Assembly: GCA_031270845.1 (NCBI GenBank)
Contig: JAISXF010000067.1
Location: 1-35,320, forward strand
Origin: Prevotellaceae bacterium
GTDB lineage: Bacteria; Bacteroidota; Bacteroidia; Bacteroidales; UBA932
Direction: 5' to 3'
Length of the DNA stretch: 35,320 nt
Of the stretch, positions 11,562 through 35,150 are shown in pieces; position 1 is the first letter of the stretch; each line of letters starts with the position of its first letter. The translations under genes and the position numbers were made by a program. Under the pieces are notes generated by a model. It did not search any database, had not been told where the DNA came from, and worked only from the letters and a program-made list of their open reading frames with translations.

Positions 11562-11596
11562 GATTTTTGATTTTTGATAATGGATTATTGATTCTA
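11562..11596. repeat. Five heptads (GATNNNN) between the DUF4832 and susD genes
   Basis: GATTTTT, GATTTTT, GATAATG, GATTATT, GATTCTA run without gaps. The last one contains the susD stop codon (11594-11596). This is another case of a 7-bp repeat at a gene end. Confidence 0.7.
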
Positions 11597-13129
11597 CTGC
11601 GCATATCCGGGGTTCTGCTTCACCATTCCTTTTCCATCGACGATTACGGAGAGGGGCAACGGGTAGAGGTATTTGTATTTTGCGGCGTAGGGAGCGACGT
11701 TGTTGTTGAGTTCCATGACGCGGTCGTAGAGGAGGTCGAAGCGGATAAGGTCGGCGCGGTACTGTCCGCTTTCGCACCAAAATTCGTGGCTTCGTTCGGT
11801 GAGCAGCTGGGAGATAAAGGCGTCTTTGGAGGGGAAGTCGGCGAGGGATTTAGGCGTCAGGCGGGCGCGGAGCCGCACGTCGTTCATCCGGTCGACGGCT
11901 TCCTGCGTAACGCCGCCGCCGGGTTTCATCACGATGGCTTCGGCCAGCGAGAGCAGGATTTCGGGGTATCGGAAGATGACAATATCGAGGTTACTTACCC
12001 CGCTGCTGACTGGGACGGCTGGGTCGATTTCGTATTTCTGCGGGATAGGTCCGAGGTCGATATATGCGCTCGGGTTCGCGCGGTTGTAGGTTTGTCCCTC
12101 ATAGGTATATTCGGCGAGAAGGTATGTTTTGCGGGTGTCGCTGGGTTCAAAGGAATCGTAGAACCACCAGGTGCTTTGCGAGGTTGCCCAGCCCTTGATA
12201 ATAAAATCGGATTCGGGCGGCAGCACCATCATGTGCCACTGCCCGACGTTCGGGCCTGCGACCGATGTAGGGATAATGAAGATATACTCCGGGTTGCTGG
12301 TGTTCATACCGGCAAACTCGAACAGCGAGGGATAGTGATCGACTAACGAATACCAGCGGGCGTCGATAATTTCGCGCGCCAGCGTTTCTATTTTATTATA
12401 GTATGCTTTGTCGTGCACCGTTTCGTGCAGGTAGAGGCGGATGAGGAGGGTTTTGGCCAGTCCCTTGCTGAATCGTCCGTAAACGGCATCGGGGGGCGCG
12501 GGCAGGTATTGGGCGGCAAAGAGCAGGTCTTCTTCGATGAACCGCACCATGTCGTCGTTCGAGAGCCGGGGGAGGGATACTTCGGTGAGGGGGTCGCCCA
12601 GGACTTCGATGGGAGCAATAATCAGCGGGCCGAACATGTCGAAGAGGATATAGGAAAGATACCCGCGTGCACAGCGGACTTCAGCAAGGTAGCGGTCTTT
12701 GAGCGCCCGACTGACGCTGCTTTTTTCGATGGCATCCATCACGATGGTACAGCGGCTGATTTTGTTATGAAATCCGTCGGAACCGCTCCACGCGCCGGGG
12801 CGCACGTAGAAGAAGCTCGTTACGTCGATGTGGGTTTCGTTGTACGATAATTCGGAACACATTTTTTGCGCGCCGTATTTGCCGGTTAAAATCTCCGTGC
12901 AGCAGTCGTTGACAAGCATCTGCCCGCGTTCGGAGTTGGTGTTGATGCCGTCCCACCAGCTGCCGCGCAGCGGGTAATAGCACGACATGACAAGCGCTTC
13001 GAGGTCGGCTTCGGTTTTGGGAAATACCGACGGGTTGATTTCGGAATAATTGAGCGGTTCGAGGTCGCCGCAACTGCCGGCGGCCGATAGCAGCAGGATA
13101 AGGATGATGGTATGAAATGTTGTTTTCAT
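11594..13129 (-). CDS. RagB/SusD-family glycan-binding lipoprotein
   Basis: A 511-residue outer-membrane lipoprotein that forms the lid of a SusC transporter and binds glycan or peptide. The signal peptide ends at Cys20 (AAGSC). The SusD fold is supported by the N-terminal segment around YYPLRG, the TPR-like helices and the C-terminal RagB/SusD motif LLTERSHEFWCESGQYRAD (near 445). It begins 12 bp after the SusC stop codon, the usual pairing. The substrate cannot be inferred from sequence. Confidence 0.93.
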   Translation of the reverse strand: MKTTFHTIILILLLSAAGSCGDLEPLNYSEINPSVFPKTEADLEALVMSCYYPLRGSWWDGINTNSERGQMLVNDCCTEILTGKYGAQKMCSELSYNETHIDVTSFFYVRPGAWSGSDGFHNKISRCTIVMDAIEKSSVSRALKDRYLAEVRCARGYLSYILFDMFGPLIIAPIEVLGDPLTEVSLPRLSNDDMVRFIEEDLLFAAQYLPAPPDAVYGRFSKGLAKTLLIRLYLHETVHDKAYYNKIETLAREIIDARWYSLVDHYPSLFEFAGMNTSNPEYIFIIPTSVAGPNVGQWHMMVLPPESDFIIKGWATSQSTWWFYDSFEPSDTRKTYLLAEYTYEGQTYNRANPSAYIDLGPIPQKYEIDPAVPVSSGVSNLDIVIFRYPEILLSLAEAIVMKPGGGVTQEAVDRMNDVRLRARLTPKSLADFPSKDAFISQLLTERSHEFWCESGQYRADLIRFDLLYDRVMELNNNVAPYAAKYKYLYPLPLSVIVDGKGMVKQNPGYAQ

Positions 13130-13141
13130 TCTTTTATTTTT

Positions 13142-16100
13142 TTAAAATTTAATATCAAGTCCAAAGGTAAATGTACGGGCGTTGGGGTAGGCTGCGGCAT
13201 AGACGTCGGTCTCGGGGTCAAGCCCCGTGTAGGGCGTGAGGATAAACAGGTTGTTGGCATCGGCATAGAGGCGGATGACGGGCGCGAATTTTCCCAGCAC
13301 CGTAATCTTCGGCAGCGTATAGCCGATAGCGATGCTTTGCAGGCGGAGAAACCAGGCGTTCTGGAGGAACCAGTCGCCCCGGCCGTATTGCGACCAGCCG
13401 TAGAACGAGCTTGGCCGCGTGGTCGAGGGCTTATCGGGCATCCAGCGGTCGCGCAGTGTCCGCAGGCCATTGTATCCATACTGGGCGATGCCGTCGGCCG
13501 AGGAGCCTAAGACAATAAACGTCAGGTCTTCCATTGACCGCCCGAAGAGGCCGTTTATATCAAAGCTGAAGTCGATGTTTTTCCACCGGAAGCGGTTCGA
13601 GAAGCCGATGATGCACGACGGGTCGGTGGAACCCATCAGGCGCGTATCGGCATCGTCGATGATGCCGTCGGGGGCGCCGGTGAGGAGAAACATGCCGTTT
13701 TCGACTATCGGGTCGCCGTACTCGTCGCGCCGGTAGCCGTTGATGTCGCGGATGACTAACTGTCCGGGCTTGAGGTCGGGCTGCGACGCCGGGGGCGCCT
13801 CGCCTACCTGCAGGATATGGTCGGCCACGCGCGAATACCGGGCGCGTATCGGGTCATCGACCTGTTCGTACACCGCCGGCTTCCATTCGGCCGTCCGTTC
13901 GAGCCAGCGGTCGCGGTAGGTCGAGAAGGTAAAATCGGTTGACCACGCAAAGTTGTCGGTGTCGATATTCTTTGTATTGACGGTAATCTCCAGTCCGCGG
14001 CTTTGCGTCCGTCCGATATTGGCTATCACGCGGCTGATGTCATGGTAAATATTCAGCGACTTGTAATTTAGCAGGTCGGATACGATGCGGTTGTAAAATT
14101 CGACCGACATCGAAAACCGGCCGCCGTAGAGCGCCACATCCAACCCGACATTAAACTCGGTGGTTGTTTCCCATTTCAGGTTAGGGTTCTCGAGGCGGCT
14201 TTGGAATACGCCGACGATTTGCGCGTCATCAATCGTATTCCAGGCCGGCGAGGCCGTGTAGGCGGCAAAGGCGTTTTCGACGATGGCGGAGTTGCCTGTC
14301 TGCCCGTAGCTGCCGCGCAGCTTGAGCATCGAGAGTGTCGAGCGGAGGCTTTCCATAAACGGCTCTTCGGAGATATTCCATGCCAGCGCAATGGAAGGGA
14401 AATAGCCCCACTTGTGGTTCCGGGCGAATACGCTGGCGCCGTCGGCGCGGAATGTGGCCGTGAGCAGGTAGCGGTCGAGCAGCGTATAGTTGATACGGGT
14501 AAAGAGCGATTTCATCTTATTTTCGTTGCCCCAGGACCAGAGTTGCTTCACGCCGACGCCCGCCCCCATGTTGTTATAGCCAAAGCCGTCGATAATAAAA
14601 TCGTTATTGCGCATGTCATGACCGTTACCAACTAAGCTTTCGAAGGATGCGCCGGCGAGGGCGCTGAAGCGGTGGATGTCGTTCCATGTTGCCGTATAGT
14701 TCACCGTGCCTTCGAGCAGGAACTGCTCGTTGAGGGTTTGATTGATGGTGGCGGTGCCGTTCGAGAGGCCTCCGTGGAGGGTCGATTTCGGCATGTAAGT
14801 CTTCCGGCTCTGGTAGGCGATGTCGGCGCCGGCAGCCAGTTTAATGCGCAATCCCTTCATCGGCTCTATCACCAGGTCGGTATTGGCGAGCAGGCGATCC
14901 ATCCGACCGTTGTCCTGCACATTGAGCAGCGAGTAAGCGTTCGGCTGGGTCGGCAGTTCGGGGTTAATCGGATAGTTGCCGGCCTCGTCGATAGCCTGAA
15001 TATGCGGCCCCATTTGCACGGCGGCACGCAGCAGCCCGGACTGTTCATTCCCTTTGTCGCCCAGTGCCCGGTTGTCGTTGTCGAGCCGCGTAGCGACGAT
15101 ATTGACCCCTAATTTTACATAATCATTAATAGCGTGGTCGAGATTGACCTTGCCGGTGTAGCGCGTAATGCTCGAATTTTTAATAATTCCGTCGTGGTCG
15201 AAATAATTAAACGAAACCAGATACTTTGTCCGCGTGCTGCCGCCCTGTATATTCACATTATGCTGCTGGATGCTGCCCAGCCGCGTTATCAGGCCGACCC
15301 AGTCGGTGCCTTCGCCGGCGGAAGCAATTTCGGTATCGGTATAGGGCAGCTTATATCTCACGCCGTTCTTGGGGAAATTCATCGCGTCTTGCAGCGACCG
15401 GTTGCCGTAGGGGGTAACGTCGTTGTCGAACATCCAGTAATCCCAGCTGGCGGTGTTTTTCTCGACCATCCATTCCTGCAGGTTATATAAATCAAAAATA
15501 TTGGAATGCTGCTGCACGCCGTACGACACGCCGTAATTAACCGTCGTTTGGCCTTCGGCGCCCCGTTTGGTTGTAACAAGCACCACGCCGTTGGCCGCAC
15601 GCGCGCCGTAGATGGCCGTAGCCGAGGCATCTTTCAGCACTTCGATGGAGGCAATATCGTTCGGATTTAAAAAATTCAACACGCTTTGCGTACCGCCGTC
15701 CAGGAGGATATTACCGCTGCCGGGCAGCCCGAGCTGGGCAATGGGAAAACCATCGACCACATACAGCGGCTGGTTGCTGGCATTTACCGACCCCGCGCCG
15801 CGGACAAGGATATTGAGTCCGCCACCGGGCTGGGCGCTGTTCTGGATAATCGACAGCCCGGCGGCCTTTCCTTTCAGCGCATGGCCTATCGACGCCGACG
15901 CCGTCATATTCACATCCGCCGCTTTGATAGACGACACCGCCCCGGTCATGTCGCGCTTGCGCACCGACCCGTAGCCAATCACGACTAACTCGTCGAGCTG
16001 CGTCGCCCCTTCCCGGAGCGTTACGTCGATGCGGGCACGGAGGTCGATTGCTTCAATCAGGTCGGCAAAGCCGATGTAGGAGAACTGCAACTGGGTGACG

Positions 16101-16585
16101 CCCTCGGGCAGCGTAATACGGTACGAGCCATCAATGCCGGTGAGCGCCGACTGCGTATGGCCGACAGCCGATACCGTAACCCCGACCAGCGGCTCGGCGT
16201 TGCCGTCGGTTACCATGCCGGTAATAGTGGTTTTCGGCCGTGGCGCTGCCGGCGCATTTTTCAACAGTATCGAAACCTGGTTCTCCTTAATTTCGTACGT
16301 TAAATTAGTAGCGGCAAAAATCCGCTCAAGCACCGCCGAAAGCGGCTCGGCATTGACCTCGATGCTGGCGGTCTTCAACAGCTCCGCCGGCACTTTGTCC
16401 GAATAAAAAAATACATAATTGCTCGTATTCTCAATACGCTGAAGAATACTCTTGATGGTTTGATCCTGAACTTTCAGGGTAATTTTTGTCTGCTGAGACA
16501 GCGCCGGTGCACTCACCAGGGCAAACAGCAATAAAAGCACGCAGCGCGCTTTTTTCAAAGAAAAGGGAATGGTTGTTTTGTTCAT
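13142..16585 (-). CDS. SusC/RagA-family TonB-dependent transporter with an STN domain
   Basis: A 1147-residue outer-membrane transporter. A signal peptide (1-30) is followed by a secretin/TonB short N-terminal (STN) domain (about 34-108), a carboxypeptidase-regulatory-like domain (119-200), a TonB-box region with DELVVIGYG, a plug domain (about 215-330) and a large beta-barrel ending in FTFGLDIKF. The STN domain marks it as a signalling transporter: on ligand binding it contacts the FecR anti-sigma factor in the periplasm. The FecR gene lies 6 bp upstream, so sigma, FecR and transporter form one circuit. The length is normal for the family. Confidence 0.95.
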   Translation of the reverse strand: MNKTTIPFSLKKARCVLLLLFALVSAPALSQQTKITLKVQDQTIKSILQRIENTSNYVFFYSDKVPAELLKTASIEVNAEPLSAVLERIFAATNLTYEIKENQVSILLKNAPAAPRPKTTITGMVTDGNAEPLVGVTVSAVGHTQSALTGIDGSYRITLPEGVTQLQFSYIGFADLIEAIDLRARIDVTLREGATQLDELVVIGYGSVRKRDMTGAVSSIKAADVNMTASASIGHALKGKAAGLSIIQNSAQPGGGLNILVRGAGSVNASNQPLYVVDGFPIAQLGLPGSGNILLDGGTQSVLNFLNPNDIASIEVLKDASATAIYGARAANGVVLVTTKRGAEGQTTVNYGVSYGVQQHSNIFDLYNLQEWMVEKNTASWDYWMFDNDVTPYGNRSLQDAMNFPKNGVRYKLPYTDTEIASAGEGTDWVGLITRLGSIQQHNVNIQGGSTRTKYLVSFNYFDHDGIIKNSSITRYTGKVNLDHAINDYVKLGVNIVATRLDNDNRALGDKGNEQSGLLRAAVQMGPHIQAIDEAGNYPINPELPTQPNAYSLLNVQDNGRMDRLLANTDLVIEPMKGLRIKLAAGADIAYQSRKTYMPKSTLHGGLSNGTATINQTLNEQFLLEGTVNYTATWNDIHRFSALAGASFESLVGNGHDMRNNDFIIDGFGYNNMGAGVGVKQLWSWGNENKMKSLFTRINYTLLDRYLLTATFRADGASVFARNHKWGYFPSIALAWNISEEPFMESLRSTLSMLKLRGSYGQTGNSAIVENAFAAYTASPAWNTIDDAQIVGVFQSRLENPNLKWETTTEFNVGLDVALYGGRFSMSVEFYNRIVSDLLNYKSLNIYHDISRVIANIGRTQSRGLEITVNTKNIDTDNFAWSTDFTFSTYRDRWLERTAEWKPAVYEQVDDPIRARYSRVADHILQVGEAPPASQPDLKPGQLVIRDINGYRRDEYGDPIVENGMFLLTGAPDGIIDDADTRLMGSTDPSCIIGFSNRFRWKNIDFSFDINGLFGRSMEDLTFIVLGSSADGIAQYGYNGLRTLRDRWMPDKPSTTRPSSFYGWSQYGRGDWFLQNAWFLRLQSIAIGYTLPKITVLGKFAPVIRLYADANNLFILTPYTGLDPETDVYAAAYPNARTFTFGLDIKF

Positions 16586-16591
16586 ATACAG

Positions 16592-17803
16592 TTATTTTTT
16601 AGGATATAATATAATTGTTTTTGTATTCTTGTAACGATATTCAATGTTCATGTTTTTGGAAATGGTATGCAGTACCTTGTCGGGGTCGTCGAAGAGGACG
16701 AGCTTGCCGAAGCATTTTAAATGCGCCACCCGCGCGTCGCAGACAATCTCCCGGTCGTAATAGCGCGACAGGCGCGTGGCTAATTCTTCCAGCGACGTCG
16801 TATTGGTTTGAATCCAGCCATGCCGCCAGCAGGTATAATCCGTTACGTCCACATTATCGACCTGGTTGCCGCCGGCGCCGCCCGTCGAAAAACGCTGGTT
16901 CGGAAGCAGCCGCATCTTCTGCCGGCCGGCCGCCACAGCAACCGACCCCTCGACCAGCACCACCGCCTGCTCTATATCCGACGAATACGCAGAGACATTA
17001 AAGGCCGTGCCCAATACTTCGATAGTGAGCGCCGAGGATTTGACAACAAACGGCCGCGCCGGGTCTTTTTCCACTTCGATATAAATTTCCCCATCGACAT
17101 AAATTTCCCGTCTCTGCTCGAAGGAGGCCGGGAATATCAGTGTCGTCCCCGAATTGAGCCATACATGCGTGTTATCGGCCAGTATAATCGACGAGCGCCG
17201 GCCTTTTGGTACAATTAATTTATTTTGCTTCGTCTCGACAATCGGTTCCCGAATAAGCGCCCCGGCCACGCCGGCATCCTCGGTACGCACCGCAATAGCT
17301 CCCGACGCCATATAAGAAACCTGCGCATTGTTCGACAACACCATTGCCGAACGATCGACTATCAGCGTCACCTCACTGCTTTCCGGGAACGACGCTTCGT
17401 GGGCTACCGGCGCTTCTGCCGCCGGAGGATTGTCGTCCGGCGCGGGGGGAAGTAGCAGCGTGGCGCTCACAATAAGCCCCGCAACCGCCGCCGCCGCCCC
17501 CGAAACCCATAACGCCACACGCCGCCGACGCCGACGCGCCTTCTCCGCCCGGATTTGCCCCTGCAACAGCACCAGCCGCTCCATGATTTCATACGGCGGC
17601 AGGCGATAATCGTTGAGCTTGACATACCGCTTATAGAGCGCCACCGCTTCCCGCAGCGCCGGCTCTATCGCCGGCGAGTCGGCCACAACCGTCTGCCGGT
17701 ACGCCCCGTCGGAGTCCTCACCGAACATCTGCCACGTGAGGAACCCTTCGTCTTTTAAAAAATCAATCGCTGAAAAATGGCTGTATTTTGAACCCTGCAT
17801 CAT
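16592..17803 (-). CDS. FecR-family anti-sigma factor
   Basis: A 403-residue single-pass inner-membrane protein. The cytoplasmic N-terminal part (1-90) would bind the sigma factor. An Arg-rich stop (residues 90-95) precedes a transmembrane helix at 96-118. The periplasmic FecR domain (about 195-290) contains VPKGRRSSIILADNTHVWLN, and a C-terminal DUF4974-like domain (about 330-400) would receive the signal from the SusC STN domain. It lies between the sigma gene and susC, the standard order. The start is one of two adjacent ATGs (17803 or 17800). Confidence 0.93.
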   Translation of the reverse strand: MMQGSKYSHFSAIDFLKDEGFLTWQMFGEDSDGAYRQTVVADSPAIEPALREAVALYKRYVKLNDYRLPPYEIMERLVLLQGQIRAEKARRRRRRVALWVSGAAAAVAGLIVSATLLLPPAPDDNPPAAEAPVAHEASFPESSEVTLIVDRSAMVLSNNAQVSYMASGAIAVRTEDAGVAGALIREPIVETKQNKLIVPKGRRSSIILADNTHVWLNSGTTLIFPASFEQRREIYVDGEIYIEVEKDPARPFVVKSSALTIEVLGTAFNVSAYSSDIEQAVVLVEGSVAVAAGRQKMRLLPNQRFSTGGAGGNQVDNVDVTDYTCWRHGWIQTNTTSLEELATRLSRYYDREIVCDARVAHLKCFGKLVLFDDPDKVLHTISKNMNIEYRYKNTKTIILYPKK

Positions 17804-17919: not shown

Positions 17920-18513
17920 TCAATCCACAGAATACAGCAGGAATAAATAGATAAACAGCGGCAGCTGGTCATCCTTTAGCCGCTTGAGGGAGCGGGAGAC
18001 CAATTTCCGCGCCGAGGTTACGTTCATCCCCAGCAATTCGGCTATCTGGGCATAATCCATTTCCTCGATAAACCGGAGATAAATCACTTCCCGCTGCCGG
18101 GCGGTAAGTTTTGAAAGCAGGGCGTCGATTTTTTGTTTAATAATTTGCTTGTCATCGGCTCCTATCATCTCATCGAGCACGGTAGCGGAGAGCATGAAAT
18201 CCAACCCCGTACCGACAAGCGGAGTGGTCGCAGAAAACGACTTGGATTTATATAAATCGTACAATTTATTTTTAATCGACTTCAGCAAAAAATATTTGAA
18301 ATGAGCCAGCGACTCATATTCCTTTTCCATAAAATAGACCTTCAGGAACACATCCTGGACACAATCCTTCACCCATTCGCTCTCCGCACACAGGCCGCGA
18401 CCGTATGCGTACAAATCGTTGATGAACAACTGGTAAAAAAACGAAAATGCGTCGTCATCCCCTTCTTTGAATTTGCGAAAAAGCGTTTCCTGTTCCGGTG
18501 TAAATTTTAACAT
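17920..18513 (-). CDS. ECF RNA polymerase sigma factor of the glycan locus
   Basis: A 197-residue ECF sigma-70 factor. Region 2 spans about 15-90 and contains CVQDVFLKVYF; region 4 spans about 130-185 with LTARQREVIYLRF and the helix-turn-helix YAQIAELLGMNVTSARKLV. The C-terminal tail is unusually hydrophobic (LFIYLFLLYSV). The ATG at 18513 is preferred to a TTG four codons upstream. It should be held by the FecR protein encoded 116 bp downstream and activate the SusC operon. A TACCTTTG element lies at 18543-18550, and a long repeat region lies just upstream of that. Confidence 0.92.
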   Translation of the reverse strand: MLKFTPEQETLFRKFKEGDDDAFSFFYQLFINDLYAYGRGLCAESEWVKDCVQDVFLKVYFMEKEYESLAHFKYFLLKSIKNKLYDLYKSKSFSATTPLVGTGLDFMLSATVLDEMIGADDKQIIKQKIDALLSKLTARQREVIYLRFIEEMDYAQIAELLGMNVTSARKLVSRSLKRLKDDQLPLFIYLFLLYSVD

Positions 18514-18542
18514 ATACAATAGCAAGTTTGGTTAATCCGCTG

Positions 18543-18678: not shown

Positions 18679-18703
18679 TGAGCCGCTCGCTGACCTTAAC
18701 GAG

Positions 18704-18955
18704 TCTTCCGTTATCCTTAACGAGTCTTCCGTTATCCTTAACGAGTCTTCCGTTATCCTTAACGAGCCTTCCGTTATCCTTAACGAGTCTTCCGTTATCC
18801 TTAACGCGCCTTCCGTTGAACTCAACGAGCCTTCCGTTGAACTCCACGCGCCTTCCGTTGAACTCCACGCGCCTTCCGTTGAACTCCACGCGCCTTCCGT
18901 TGAACTCCACGAGCCTTCCGTTGAACTCAACGAGCCTTCCGTTGAACTCAACTTT
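18704..18955. repeat. Array C: 12 tandem 21-bp units
   Basis: Twelve units of exactly 21 bp, 252 bp in total, each starting YCTTCCGTT. The first five carry the dyad CGTTA-TCCT-TAACG (the fifth ends TAACGCG). The other seven carry CGTTGA-AC-TCAACG or a one-mismatch version ending TCCACG. The two forms differ on both arms but keep the dyad. The first form is identical to the two units at 8122-8163. Frames are open through the array on both strands, with 7-residue periods such as SSTEGSL, but nothing indicates translation. The array lies between the sirtuin terminator and the 14-bp repeats upstream of the sigma promoter. Confidence 0.95.
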
Positions 18956-22881: not shown

Positions 22882-23430
22882 CTAATTCCTGATGGAGTCC
22901 CCCGTGGCGTACCGGGGCGGTGGGGCCGACATGGTAGGGGAGAGGGTATGCGCCGGGCTGTGGTTGTCGGTTTCGGGGGGCAGGGTGTCGCCGGACGGTT
23001 TGAGGTCGGGTTCGGGGGTTTCCTGTTTTATTTCTTGCGCCGGCAGATGGTCGGCGTGCAGCGGTTCGGGCGGCTTTGCGGGGGGGATTTGATCGGGGGG
23101 GGACGGGGCGCTGTCGGGCGCACCGGCGGTTATTTCCGGCAGGGGCATTCCGGCGGGCGCCCGGTACCGGAGGTATAACAGCGTGCCGGAGGCCAGCAAT
23201 ACGGCTATGGCGGCGGCCATGAGTGTTCTCCACATTATCCGGTGCGTTTTTCGCGCCTGCTGTTCGGGTTCCAGGGCTTCCGCCAGCCTGCGGATGGCGT
23301 CGAGCTGCGCCCGGCAGTCGGGGCACGATAACAGATGCGCCTGAAAAACGGCTTCCTGCTCGTCGTTCATCCGGTTCATGAGGTAGTCCCGAATCTGTTC
23401 CCTTTCCGGATGGTTGCTGTGGTTAATCAT
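22882..23430 (-). CDS. Zinc-finger (HC2) anti-sigma-like membrane protein
   Basis: A 182-residue protein with the zinc anti-sigma motif His32-x3-Cys36-x2-Cys39 (HLLSCPDC) at the N-terminus, one transmembrane helix at 69-88, and a Pro/Glu-rich, probably disordered periplasmic tail (about 90-182). The ATG at 23430 overlaps the stop codon of the upstream sigma-like gene (ATGA), so the start is fixed by coupling; the frame further upstream is not used. The arrangement indicates that it binds and inhibits the sigma-like protein encoded just before it. Confidence 0.85.
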   Translation of the reverse strand: MINHSNHPEREQIRDYLMNRMNDEQEAVFQAHLLSCPDCRAQLDAIRRLAEALEPEQQARKTHRIMWRTLMAAAIAVLLASGTLLYLRYRAPAGMPLPEITAGAPDSAPSPPDQIPPAKPPEPLHADHLPAQEIKQETPEPDLKPSGDTLPPETDNHSPAHTLSPTMSAPPPRYATGDSIRN

Positions 23431-24557
23431 CGTTGCTGAAGGATTGTTTTTAATTGTTTTACAATATTCTTTTTTATTCTTGTACATTCCTGCCTGAGGT
23501 TTTCGTTCAGGCGTTTTCGCTCGGCGTCCGAAAGCGCCGCGCCGTTATAACGTTCTTCAATAATTTCGTCGTACGAAAGGCCATTGACCGCTACGTCTAT
23601 CAACAGGAGTACTTTGTCGTGCCGTCCTTCGACCAAGCGCCGGTGGAGCGGATGGCGGGTGTCGAGCAGTATGAGGGCGGCCAGACGTGCCATTTCGTAT
23701 TCGTTTTCCACATCGCAGTCGATTGGCGCCGGGGCAGCGTCGTCGATATTTTCATCGGCAAACCGGAAGGCTCCGGCATCCAATTCGTCCGTCGCTTCGT
23801 TTTTTTTGTTTCGCCGGCAATATTCGTGCATTTTATTGACGCATATTCTGTACGCATAGTGGCGAAAGTGAACGGCGTCGTTAAACGCGACTTCCTGCAT
23901 CCGCACTTTTCGATTCAGCTCGACATAACTTTCGGTCGTTACCTCGTCTTTTGCGATGTCTCTATAGGTAGATGACCAGATTTTCGCTTTTGTGACATGG
24001 GATGCCAGTTTATTTAACAGTTCGCATACGCAATTCCAAAAATCGCTGTCGTTACGGCGCAGCTGTACAATGAACTGTTCGAACCGGAGCGGGTATATTT
24101 TCAGTGCCTCGTTCCAGAAGTAGCCTTTGAGTTCGTCGGGCGTAAAGAACGTCTTTGTTGAATGGTAAAATGGTTGGAAGAGGTCTTCGAGAAGCAGGGC
24201 GGTAAGGTAGAAGGGCAGGCTTTGCCGGGTTTTTATCACGGCATCCCAGTCGGATGCAGCCGACTGCTGCCGGAGGGTGTCGAGTTGCCGCTGGAGCCAT
24301 GTGCGGACAGTCCGTGCGAAAGGATTTTCAACGCCTTTTTCCTTTTGCCGCTCCACAAAACGGGCATACCCGATACGGGCATACAGGAGCGGGACGAGCT
24401 CCTTGCGAAGCCCTCGGATATTGCTTGCCGCGCTGTGCATCTGCGGTGTGAGGTCGGCAATAACCGTTTGCCGGAACGAAGGAGAAAAGCCAAGATACGA
24501 GAGTTCCTGTTTTTCCCATTCTTTCACTATAATTTCCGTTGCTGCCTGAGTAACCAT
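23427..24557 (-). CDS. Divergent sigma-70-like protein with long N-terminal extension
   Basis: A 376-residue protein. Residues from about 235 on resemble an ECF sigma factor: a region-2-like helix (HFRHYAYRICVNKMHEYCRR), an acidic linker and a region-4-like end (VNGLSYDEIIEERYNGAALS with RLNENLRQECTRIKKNIVK). The first 230 residues are helical and match nothing I recognise. The immediately following, overlapping zinc-finger anti-sigma gene supports a sigma role. The ATG at 24557 shares a base with the stop codon of the kinase gene (TAATG), which favours it over the ATG at 24575. Sigma function is inference from weak similarity and context. Confidence 0.6.
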   Translation of the reverse strand: MVTQAATEIIVKEWEKQELSYLGFSPSFRQTVIADLTPQMHSAASNIRGLRKELVPLLYARIGYARFVERQKEKGVENPFARTVRTWLQRQLDTLRQQSAASDWDAVIKTRQSLPFYLTALLLEDLFQPFYHSTKTFFTPDELKGYFWNEALKIYPLRFEQFIVQLRRNDSDFWNCVCELLNKLASHVTKAKIWSSTYRDIAKDEVTTESYVELNRKVRMQEVAFNDAVHFRHYAYRICVNKMHEYCRRNKKNEATDELDAGAFRFADENIDDAAPAPIDCDVENEYEMARLAALILLDTRHPLHRRLVEGRHDKVLLLIDVAVNGLSYDEIIEERYNGAALSDAERKRLNENLRQECTRIKKNIVKQLKTILQQR

Positions 24558-25513
24558 TACCGTAATGTTGCCCATGTTTCTTTGTCAATGCGGCTGCCGA
24601 TTATTTCTACTACTTTGGCCGCTACGGTCGATGCCATCAGGCCGCATTGCGGCAGGGGACGGCCGGAGGCGTGCGCATACAGAAAGCCGGCGGCATATAA
24701 ATCGCCGGCGCCGGTAGCGTCGATAGCCTGAGCGGGGCAGGCAGGGATGGTGTGCAGCGCCTCGCCGCACTGTATGAGCGATCCCTGTTCGCCGATTTTG
24801 ACGGCTGCAATCCGACAATACCGGCTCATTTCCTGTGCCGCTTCGAGGGGGTTCCGACCGGTAAAGGCCGCCGCTTCGGCTTCGTTGGCAAATACAATAT
24901 CGACGTAGTCTTGAATGATCTCTGAGAGGAAGTCTTTATGCGCCTCTACGACGTTGTAGCTCGCCAAATCGAGCGAGATAATCAGGCCTTTGGATTTGGC
25001 GAGACCGACCGCCCGCCGCACCAAATCGAGGTTTTGCACTAAATAGCCTTCGATATGAAAATAATCATACCCGTCGAACATTGCGGGGTTCAGGTCGTCG
25101 GGCACAAGTTCGATAGCGGCGCCCAGGTAAGTGGCCATTGTGCGTTCCGTGTCGGGCGTGATAAATACCGTGCAGCGGCCTGTGGCCTGCGGACTGTGTA
25201 ATAAGATCGATTGCAGGCCGTGCGCCCGCTGGTCGTCGGCAAACAGGCGCCCGAGCTCGTCGTTCCCTGTTTTCCCGATAAACGTACTTGGCATGCCGAG
25301 TTCTGCCGTACCGTTTAGCGTATTGGAGGTCGAGCCGCCGGCCACAATTTGCACTTCGCGCGTCCGGATTTCATTCCAGATATGGCTGCTGACAGTCTCA
25401 TCCACATGCTGCATACTGCCTTTCGGCAGGTTGAATTGCCGGAGTAATTCGTCACTCTCAAGCGGGGCTAAAATATCGACTAATGCATTGCCGATGCCTA
25501 TGATAGATTTCAT
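24557..25513 (-). CDS. PfkB-family kinase, probable adenosine kinase
   Basis: A 318-residue ribokinase-fold kinase that phosphorylates a sugar or nucleoside. The N-terminal MKSIIGIGNALVDIL, the GG motif region AGGSTSNT, and the C-terminal PfkB signature with DATGAGD (catalytic Asp) are present. The N-terminal pattern GNALVDI resembles adenosine kinases of Bacteroidetes, so adenosine is the best guess. It is first of three genes with overlapping ends and starts: its TAA shares a base with the ATG of the sigma-like gene. The promoter is at 25558-25565, back to back with that of tRNA-Pro. Confidence 0.88.
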   Translation of the reverse strand: MKSIIGIGNALVDILAPLESDELLRQFNLPKGSMQHVDETVSSHIWNEIRTREVQIVAGGSTSNTLNGTAELGMPSTFIGKTGNDELGRLFADDQRAHGLQSILLHSPQATGRCTVFITPDTERTMATYLGAAIELVPDDLNPAMFDGYDYFHIEGYLVQNLDLVRRAVGLAKSKGLIISLDLASYNVVEAHKDFLSEIIQDYVDIVFANEAEAAAFTGRNPLEAAQEMSRYCRIAAVKIGEQGSLIQCGEALHTIPACPAQAIDATGAGDLYAAGFLYAHASGRPLPQCGLMASTVAAKVVEIIGSRIDKETWATLR

Positions 25514-25557: not shown

Positions 25558-25565
25558 CAAAAGTA
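25558..25565 (-). promoter_or_regulatory. -7 promoter element of the PfkB kinase operon
   Basis: TACTTTTG on the minus strand, fitting TAnnTTTG, about 45 bases before the ATG at 25513. It lies within 10 bp of the -33 element of the divergent tRNA-Pro promoter, so the two may compete. Confidence 0.55.
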
Positions 25566-26304: not shown

Positions 26305-26340
26305 TGTATCGAAATAATTATCAAAGGGCGTGCAGGACGA

Positions 26341-26610
26341 GAAAATCAACTGATTTTCTTTCGCCGCACCGAGCAGGACGAGAAAATCAACTGATTTTCT
26401 TTCCCCGCTCCGAGCGAGACGAGAAAATCAACTGATTTTCTTTCGCCGCACCGAGCGAGACGAGAAAATCAACTGATTTTCTTTCGCCGCTCCGAGCGAG
26501 ACGAGAAAATCAACTGATTTTCTTTCCCCGCTCCGAGCGAGACGAGAAAATCAACTGATTTTCTTTCCCCGCTCCGAGCGAGACGAGAAAATCAGGTGAT
26601 TTTCTGATGC
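26341..26610. repeat. Array D: seven 41-bp units with an 18-bp palindrome
   Basis: Units start at 26341, 26382, 26423, 26464, 26505, 26546 and 26587, a constant period of 41 bp. Each unit holds the perfect palindrome GAAAATCA-AC-TGATTTTC (GG at the centre in the last copy). A GC-rich spacer follows, which in several copies contains the second dyad CGCTC-C-GAGCG. Since 41 is not a multiple of 3, no continuous reading frame spans the array. It ends about 20 bp before the -33 element of the PorE-like gene and fills the gap after rdgB. Confidence 0.95.
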
Positions 26611-30162: not shown

Positions 30163-30218
30163 GAACGATGAACGATGAACGATGAAGTATGAAGTATGAA
30201 GTATGAAGTATGAAGGAT
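30163..30218. repeat. Left heptad run flanking array E
   Basis: Eight gap-free 7-bp repeats: GAACGAT three times, GAAGTAT four times, GAAGGAT once. They are complementary in type to the run at 30736-30798. Confidence 0.92.
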
Positions 30219-30234
30219 GAACTCGTTATTCGGG

Positions 30235-30690
30235 GAAAGTCTCTCCACGTCGTCGAGCGACTTTTTTTCCATAGGGGGAAAGTCTCTCCACGACGTGGAG
30301 CAACTTTCTCCCTATGGGGGAAAGTCTCTCCACGACGTGGAACGACTTTCTGCCTATGGGGGAAAGTCTCTCCACGTCGTGGAGCGACTTTCCCCCTATG
30401 GAAAAAAATTTCTCAGCGAAAAATTTCTCCGCATTGCTGAGACACTTTTTACATATGGTAGAAAGTCTCTCGACGTCGTCGAGCAACTTTTTACATATGG
30501 TAGAAAGTCTCTCGACGTCGTCAAGCGACTTTTTACATATGGTAGAAAGTCTCTCGACGTCGTCAAGCGACTTTTTACATATGGTAGAAAGTCTCTCGAC
30601 GTCGTCAAGCGACTTTCTACCTATTGCGAAAAATTTCTCAGCGAAAAATTTCTCAGCATTGCGGAGACACTTTCTACCTATTGCGAAAAA
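30235..30690. repeat. Array E: about eleven 42-bp hairpin units
   Basis: Units starting GAAAGT occur at 30235, 30278, 30320, 30362, 30461, 30503, 30545 and 30587, mostly 42 bp apart, with variant GAAAAATTT units at 30401-30460 and 30628-30690. A typical unit is a hairpin: outer arms GAAAGT / ACTTTC, inner palindrome CTCCACG-A-CGTGGAG (for example 30286-30300). From 30461 the inner palindrome becomes CTCGACG-T-CGTCGAG (30469-30483), a paired change on both arms. Later copies have CGTCAAG on the right arm, a mismatch on plus but G-U on minus. Several frames on both strands are open through the array, with 14-residue periods. It fills the gap between the radA and tryptophanase-like promoters; no ordinary gene is seen. 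Confidence 0.93.
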
Positions 30691-30735
30691 TCTCACAGCC
30701 GTTCCGCTTAACCGCCTAACATAATCCCGATGCCG

Positions 30736-30798
30736 GTTCATAGTTCATCGTTCATCGTTCATACCTCATACTTCATACTTCATACTTCATACTTCATA
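30736..30798. repeat. Right heptad run flanking array E
   Basis: Nine gap-free 7-bp repeats: GTTCATA, GTTCATC twice, GTTCATA, CCTCATA and CTTCATA four times. They are inverted copies of the words at 30163-30218 and also match 10192-10226. The run ends 10 bp before the -7 element at 30809 and covers the expected -33 position. Confidence 0.92.
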
Positions 30799-34880: not shown

Positions 34881-35150
34881 ATGTGTAGCCGGTCTCCCGG
34901 AGCTTCCGGGGGAGCAGCGCACATGTGTAGCCGGTCTCCCGGAAGCTCTGGGGAAGCAGCTGCCTATGTCAGCTGGTCTCCCGGAAGCTCTGGGGAAGCG
35001 GCTGCCTATGTCAGCTGGTCTCCCGGAAGCTCTGGGGAAGCGGCTGCCTATGTCAGCCGGTCTCCCGGAAGCTCTGGGGAAGCGGCTGCCTATGTCAGCC
35101 GGTCTCCCAGAAGCTCCGGGAAAGCGGTCCCCTATGTCAGCCGGCCATAA
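34881..35150 (+). CDS. Possible 14-residue-repeat ORF over array F
   Basis: An 89-codon frame from an ATG at 34881 to TAA at 35148-35150. It consists of 14-residue repeats of the pattern SPGSSGEAAAYVSW. There is no close promoter or obvious ribosome-binding signal at the ATG. It is open leftward to the CAGCA tract and could be the second part of a slippage-controlled ORF. It could equally be a by-product of a 42-bp repeat, since another frame (34966-35163) is also open. Confidence 0.25.
   Translation: MCSRSPGASGGAAHMCSRSPGSSGEAAAYVSWSPGSSGEAAAYVSWSPGSSGEAAAYVSRSPGSSGEAAAYVSRSPRSSGKAVPYVSRP
34891..35142. repeat. Array F: six tandem 42-bp units
   Basis: GGTCTCC begins a unit at 34891, 34933, 34975, 35017, 35059 and 35101, a constant 42-bp period and 252 bp in total. 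The first copy holds a clear dyad (TCCCGGA-GCT-TCCGGG); later copies keep TCCC..GGGA around a central AGCT with mismatches. It lies between the CAGCA tract and the gene at 35214. Confidence 0.95.

Follow-up and report, generated by a model that had tools for sequence, protein, structure and literature searches.

Do three genes joined by overlapping codons form one regulatory system? This question is raised by the minus strand of the stretch analysed here, a 35,320-nucleotide contig that we call the window, in which the gene for a PfkB-family kinase (24557..25513) is followed by that for a sigma-like protein of 376 aa, SIG (23427..24557), and that for a zinc anti-sigma protein of 182 aa, ANTI (22882..23430). 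The initial annotation had linked all three genes into a regulatory system that includes the metabolic kinase. Comparison of pair conservation, ECF homology, kinase conservation, motif placement and co-occurrence, all at the level of sequence, led us to a different picture: probably, an ECF-type SIG/ANTI pair controls an envelope regulon through TGTCACA promoters, and the kinase is a bystander. Elsewhere in the window, genes for FecI-like ECF sigma (17920-18525), FecR-like anti-sigma (16592-17803), SusC-like (13142-16585) and SusD-like (11594-13129) proteins were recognised by eye, by appearance an ordinary ECF-controlled glycan utilisation locus. The window also holds tandem 42-base units (30163-30798), which have a higher-order period of 225 bases and are open in both strands, and similar arrays at 26336-26605, 34887-35144, 1273-1533 and 18691-18952.

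SIG is about twice the usual ECF length, as noted earlier, and its sigma matches as a single sequence are indeed weak. The NCBIfam sigma70-ECF model matched residues 201-294 at 0.0018, a Pfam search with SIG itself gave no match, and SIG scored 17.9 bits against the general ECF model, below the curated cut-off of 42.9, which is an annotation threshold and not a defining feature. We compared a 22-member alignment of the SIG family with one built from ordinary ECF factors of the same order. Residues ~155-376 matched over 188 columns (probability 97%, E 5e-11), and regions 2 and 4 (residues 156-376; 23430..24092) were both aligned in the order of ECF factors, which have no region 3. The sigma70-ECF model was matched below E 1 by 10 of the 22 family members, the best at 1.7e-6, and a search of the family profile against PDB sequences returned no sigma match. 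In the 22-member alignment, region 4 holds a larger loop. Since SIG lies below the curated cut-off, it was filed as ECF-type and placed in no named ECF group.

The N-terminal region had been described as unrecognised and 230 residues long. The first part of this description stood: the profile search proposed for the region found no relative among ECF factors, in Pfam or among PDB sequences. Its length did not, because the ECF match starts at ~155, which leaves an extension of ~155 residues (residues 1-155; 24093..24557). The idea of a duplicated sigma domain was rejected, as the region gave no match to the ECF alignment. AlphaFold predicted the extension to be helical, at low confidence. The models of full-length SIG and of its C-terminal part, with two homologues as input, had a mean pLDDT of 48, with about 72-88 for the region 4 part and low values for the remainder, and a fold search with the low-confidence model gave no significant match. 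Because only two homologues were used, the models were of low confidence, and the sigma fold therefore rests on sequence profiles. On the best reading, SIG is an ECF-type sigma factor with an extra N-terminal domain of ~155 residues.

The identity of ANTI as a zinc anti-sigma protein was borne out by a Pfam zf-HC2 match above the cut-off (27.4 bits against 22.2; E 3.6e-6). ANTI carries H-x3-C-x2-C, with H32, C36 and C39 invariant, one likely membrane helix at about residues 67-88, judged by eye, and a short, proline-rich tail. Seven of eight ANTI relatives were also above the Pfam cut-off for zf-HC2. The ANTI gene adjoins SIG on its downstream side, which is the gene order of class I zf-HC2 anti-sigma factors, and the SIG stop and ANTI start overlap in ATGA (23427..23430). 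A zf-HC2 protein directly follows nearly every SIG, usually with the same 4-base overlap; at four loci (L058, L059, L069 and L071), the pair was left unresolved by simple ORF calling.

SIG is present in about 23 genomes, which belong to one GTDB family except for one distant Bacteroidales genome (G403). Relatives of the same length occur in 22 other genomes, and one more (in G227) is split over two contigs. The orthologue in a congener, G004, is 71-72% identical to the window SIG, and the relatives from further genera of this GTDB family, chiefly g7 with some from g13 and g19, are about 20% identical. Among 396 sampled genomes of the phylum, only the window genome and G403 passed E 1e-10, and searches of viral contigs and plasmids found no SIG relatives. 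Weak matches of the SIG profile at positions 335-378 in G112, G274 and G023 were rejected as relatives; they are imidazolonepropionase genes, matched through a GLSYEEI-like string and, in G274, in a reverse frame. By sequence comparison, SIG and ANTI are a genuine, conserved sigma/anti-sigma pair, and that divergent relatives repeat both the pairing and the ATGA overlap is more than chance. ANTI would then be expected to bind SIG.

The kinase has a Pfam PfkB match of 4e-39 and is adenosine-kinase-like by resemblance. Its stop TAA (24559-24557) and the SIG start ATG (24557-24555) share a base in TAATG (24555-24559), just as first described. The TAATG and ATGA junctions on a single strand would suit a functional unit of all three genes, in which the kinase or its substrate signals to SIG through translational coupling. 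The distribution of the genes speaks strongly against such a unit. Five congeners have the kinase and no SIG or ANTI beside it (in one of them, G008, the contig ends soon after the kinase), and in none of the other genomes examined does a kinase stand beside SIG. In G004, SIG is located elsewhere with no adjoining kinase, and in genus g7 the place of the kinase is mostly taken by galE, a few bases before SIG. The TAATG junction was seen only in the window genome among the genomes examined. Moreover, the C-terminus of the window kinase is 6-8 residues shorter than in its orthologues and ends exactly at the SIG start, suggesting that SIG-ANTI came to lie behind the kinase secondarily in the window lineage. 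We thus regard a three-gene unit as highly improbable; the part of the earlier proposal that gave a metabolic kinase a regulatory role had to be abandoned, and of the gene order only the SIG-ANTI pair is kept across relatives. An assembly artefact at the kinase-SIG junction is another explanation for a unique junction in a metagenome-assembled contig, at which the kinase end is shortened exactly. However, the junction lies in the middle of the 35-kb contig and both frames are intact across it, making an artefact quite unlikely.

These comparisons indicate that the kinase link is not conserved and that the kinase is a bystander of the SIG-ANTI pair. Four-base gene overlaps are ordinary in bacterial operons, and a tight overlap with a metabolic enzyme gene need not mean a common function. 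The Bacteroidetes housekeeping -7 consensus is TAnnTTTG, and a candidate element of this type, TACTTTTG, lies upstream of the kinase (25558..25565, minus strand); it would also drive read-through from the kinase into SIG-ANTI. In congeners, repetitive low-complexity frames were seen near the kinase (L089, L090).

The genes that follow the pair in two other genomes provided candidate targets. In G004, SIG-ANTI is followed by genes for a small lipoprotein, a DUF4384 protein and a transglutaminase-like protein, and after this operon by WG-repeat and FGE-sulfatase genes. In G403, the pair is followed by genes for a DUF4384 protein, a transglutaminase-like protein and a caspase-domain protein. On the opposite strand near that pair (L073:9521-12610), G403 encodes a tubulin-like GTPase of 1029 aa (GGTGGKVLKAIR), and small genes come after it. 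In the window genome (G000), the lipoprotein/DUF4384/transglutaminase-like operon is on contig C106, apart from SIG-ANTI on C40. The name transglutaminase-like comes from a C...H...D pattern in the G004 protein, read by eye, with no match in a Pfam search. Within the genus, the operon was found in 2/2 SIG-positive and 0/7 SIG-negative genomes. The transglutaminase-like protein was found in 23 of 24 SIG-positive genomes versus 4 of 30 SIG-negative ones (Fisher p 7e-10, with kinship ignored). The four SIG-negative genomes with this protein are G015, G017, G027 and G033 (loci L115, L114, L122 and L113). In many g7 genomes (L117-L129), the lipoprotein/transglutaminase-like operon lies between fructose-bisphosphate-aldolase-like and grpE/dnaJ-like genes, with TGTCACA upstream. 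To our knowledge, no regulator of these lipoprotein, DUF4384, WG-repeat, caspase-like and transglutaminase-like genes is known.

A promoter motif was derived by comparing two operon upstream regions and was afterwards tested genome-wide by pattern search. The upstream regions in G000 and G004 have TGTCACAAAC-N-GTCATTA in common. In the 2.0-Mb window genome, TGTCACAAA-N12-GTCAT occurs three times. The looser pattern TGTCAC-N15-GTC likewise gave 3 matches, all of the form TGTCACAAA...GTCA, against 11 for the reversed control pattern. One site (C106:18732; L096:6733) lies 57 bases before the lipoprotein gene of the candidate operon, another (C10:5302; L100:3803) lies 45 bases before a secreted WG-repeat and caspase gene, and the third is within SIG, upstream of ANTI. 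G004 has four sites, all with TGTCACAAA: one at its own operon, one at the homologous place in SIG, and two that precede further operons, namely an LPP20-domain and PEGA operon and an HU-HIG and putative lipoprotein operon. In the seven SIG-negative congeners, TGTCAC-N15-GTC matched 2 times in all, and 0 times with TGTCACAAA.

The -35 part of the motif was also found outside the window genus. In g7 and g13, where SIG is ~20% identical, the orthologous operon is preceded by an invariant TGTCACA in 10/10 genomes with differing flanks. The pattern TGTCACA-N14-YTATTT was present in all 10 of the g7 genomes that were searched, at one site in nine of them and at two in G092; of 10 SIG-negative genomes, 1 had it. 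The -10 part varies from genus to genus, the GTCAT form being that of the window genus. In the stretches scanned for G403 and genus g19, no TGTCACA was found before the operon. We infer that SIG recognises the TGTCACA motif, and the rarity of the motif suggests that SIG turns on a small set of envelope genes elsewhere on the chromosome.

The site inside SIG, TGTCACAAAAGCGAAAATCTGGTCAT (23972..23997, minus strand), is a candidate SIG-type promoter ~540 bases before ANTI. Its motif codons are identical in G000 and G004, two spacer codons differ, and GTC-ACA is kept at the homologous place in the G403 SIG, a partial conservation; a search of the g7 SIG genes did not find the motif. The site would fit a SIG-dependent promoter for ANTI and hence negative feedback. 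It could also be partly fixed by protein coding, or be there by chance.

Two further explanations concern the role of SIG itself. The motif might be read by a different ECF factor or DNA-binding protein that is co-inherited with SIG, the targets of SIG being others. The genomes encode several ECF factors, ECF41 likewise has TGTCACA as its -35 element, and the transglutaminase-like protein is retained in four SIG-negative genomes, all in keeping with another reader. Such a reader is unlikely, however, given that the seven SIG-negative congeners lack the TGTCACAAA form, that SIG-ANTI adjoins the target operon in two lineages, and that one site lies within SIG itself. It is a little less likely still that SIG is degenerate and, having ceased to bind promoters, has another role, for instance that of a decoy or adaptor to which ANTI binds. 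Full-length frames kept in ~23 genomes, the conserved pairing with ANTI and a promoter-like motif that tracks the presence of SIG argue against degeneration, whereas the weak family scores, the larger region 4 loop and the long extra domain would be explained by it.

On our preferred reading, a SIG/ANTI pair with an envelope regulon, ANTI would be anchored in the membrane and bind SIG in the cytoplasm. A signal from the envelope would cause ANTI to free SIG; the likeliest guess is stress on the envelope, detected through the extracytoplasmic tail of ANTI. The freed SIG would direct RNA polymerase to a TGTCACA -35 element, combined in the window genus with a GTCAT -10 element. The predicted targets are the lipoprotein/DUF4384/transglutaminase-like operon on C106 and the secreted WG-repeat caspase-like protein on C10. 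The internal SIG site would raise transcription of ANTI and so limit the response, and the N-terminal domain of SIG may add a second control. The kinase would contribute no more than read-through from a housekeeping promoter; that it overlaps SIG would be an accident of the pair's present position. A broader proposal, which we put forward tentatively, is that these proteins form a new Bacteroidales ECF group. In this group, a membrane zf-HC2 anti-sigma factor and a fused N-terminal domain would both control one sigma factor, and a sigma-dependent promoter within the sigma gene would add to the supply of anti-sigma. The regulon, made up of lipoprotein, transglutaminase-like and caspase-like genes of the envelope, would have held on to its -35 element as the sigma gene changed its place on the chromosome. 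For the unstudied class of long Bacteroidales sigma factors, the analysis offers a promoter that can be tested and a set of defined targets; ECF factors from uncultured bacteria seldom come with such predictions.

We compared the SIG system with known ones. It resembles ECF factors with class I zf-HC2 anti-sigma factors in that a sigma gene, encoding regions 2 and 4, is followed by a gene for a membrane zf-HC2 protein with H-x3-C-x2-C. Unlike the general pair of an ECF factor and an anti-sigma domain (ASD), SIG has the ~155-residue N-terminal extension and the larger region 4 loop, falls below the curated ECF cut-off and has a narrow range of one family and one further genome. The ECF41 promoter, TGTCACA-n16-CGTC (PMC3426412), shares with the SIG motif the TGTCACA -35 element and a GTC-containing -10 element, but its spacer is n16 and that of the SIG motif, TGTCACA-N14-GTC, is about 3 bases shorter. 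The ECF41 extension is C-terminal and SnoaL-like, whereas that of SIG is N-terminal, and no SnoaL family was among the Pfam matches of the 22 SIG members. ECF41 targets COE genes; the SIG system has an anti-sigma factor and predicted envelope targets. The Bacteroidota factor ECF21 and its anti-sigma factor Dma form a pair with an effect on the envelope, in which the anti-sigma factor crosses the inner membrane (PMC13088901), and in these respects the pair is like SIG-ANTI. In Dma the tether is long and the C-terminus forms a beta-barrel (PMC13088901), whereas ANTI has a zf-HC2 domain and a short proline-rich tail, and the two are set apart by this description. Extended ECF factors, with N- or C-terminal domains, share with SIG an extra domain fused to the ECF core; they are mostly described as lacking an anti-sigma factor (PMC8999054), whereas the SIG family has both extension and anti-sigma. 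SIG-ANTI is best read as a conserved ECF-type system of narrow distribution, marked by an unusual extension and predicted to control an envelope regulon.
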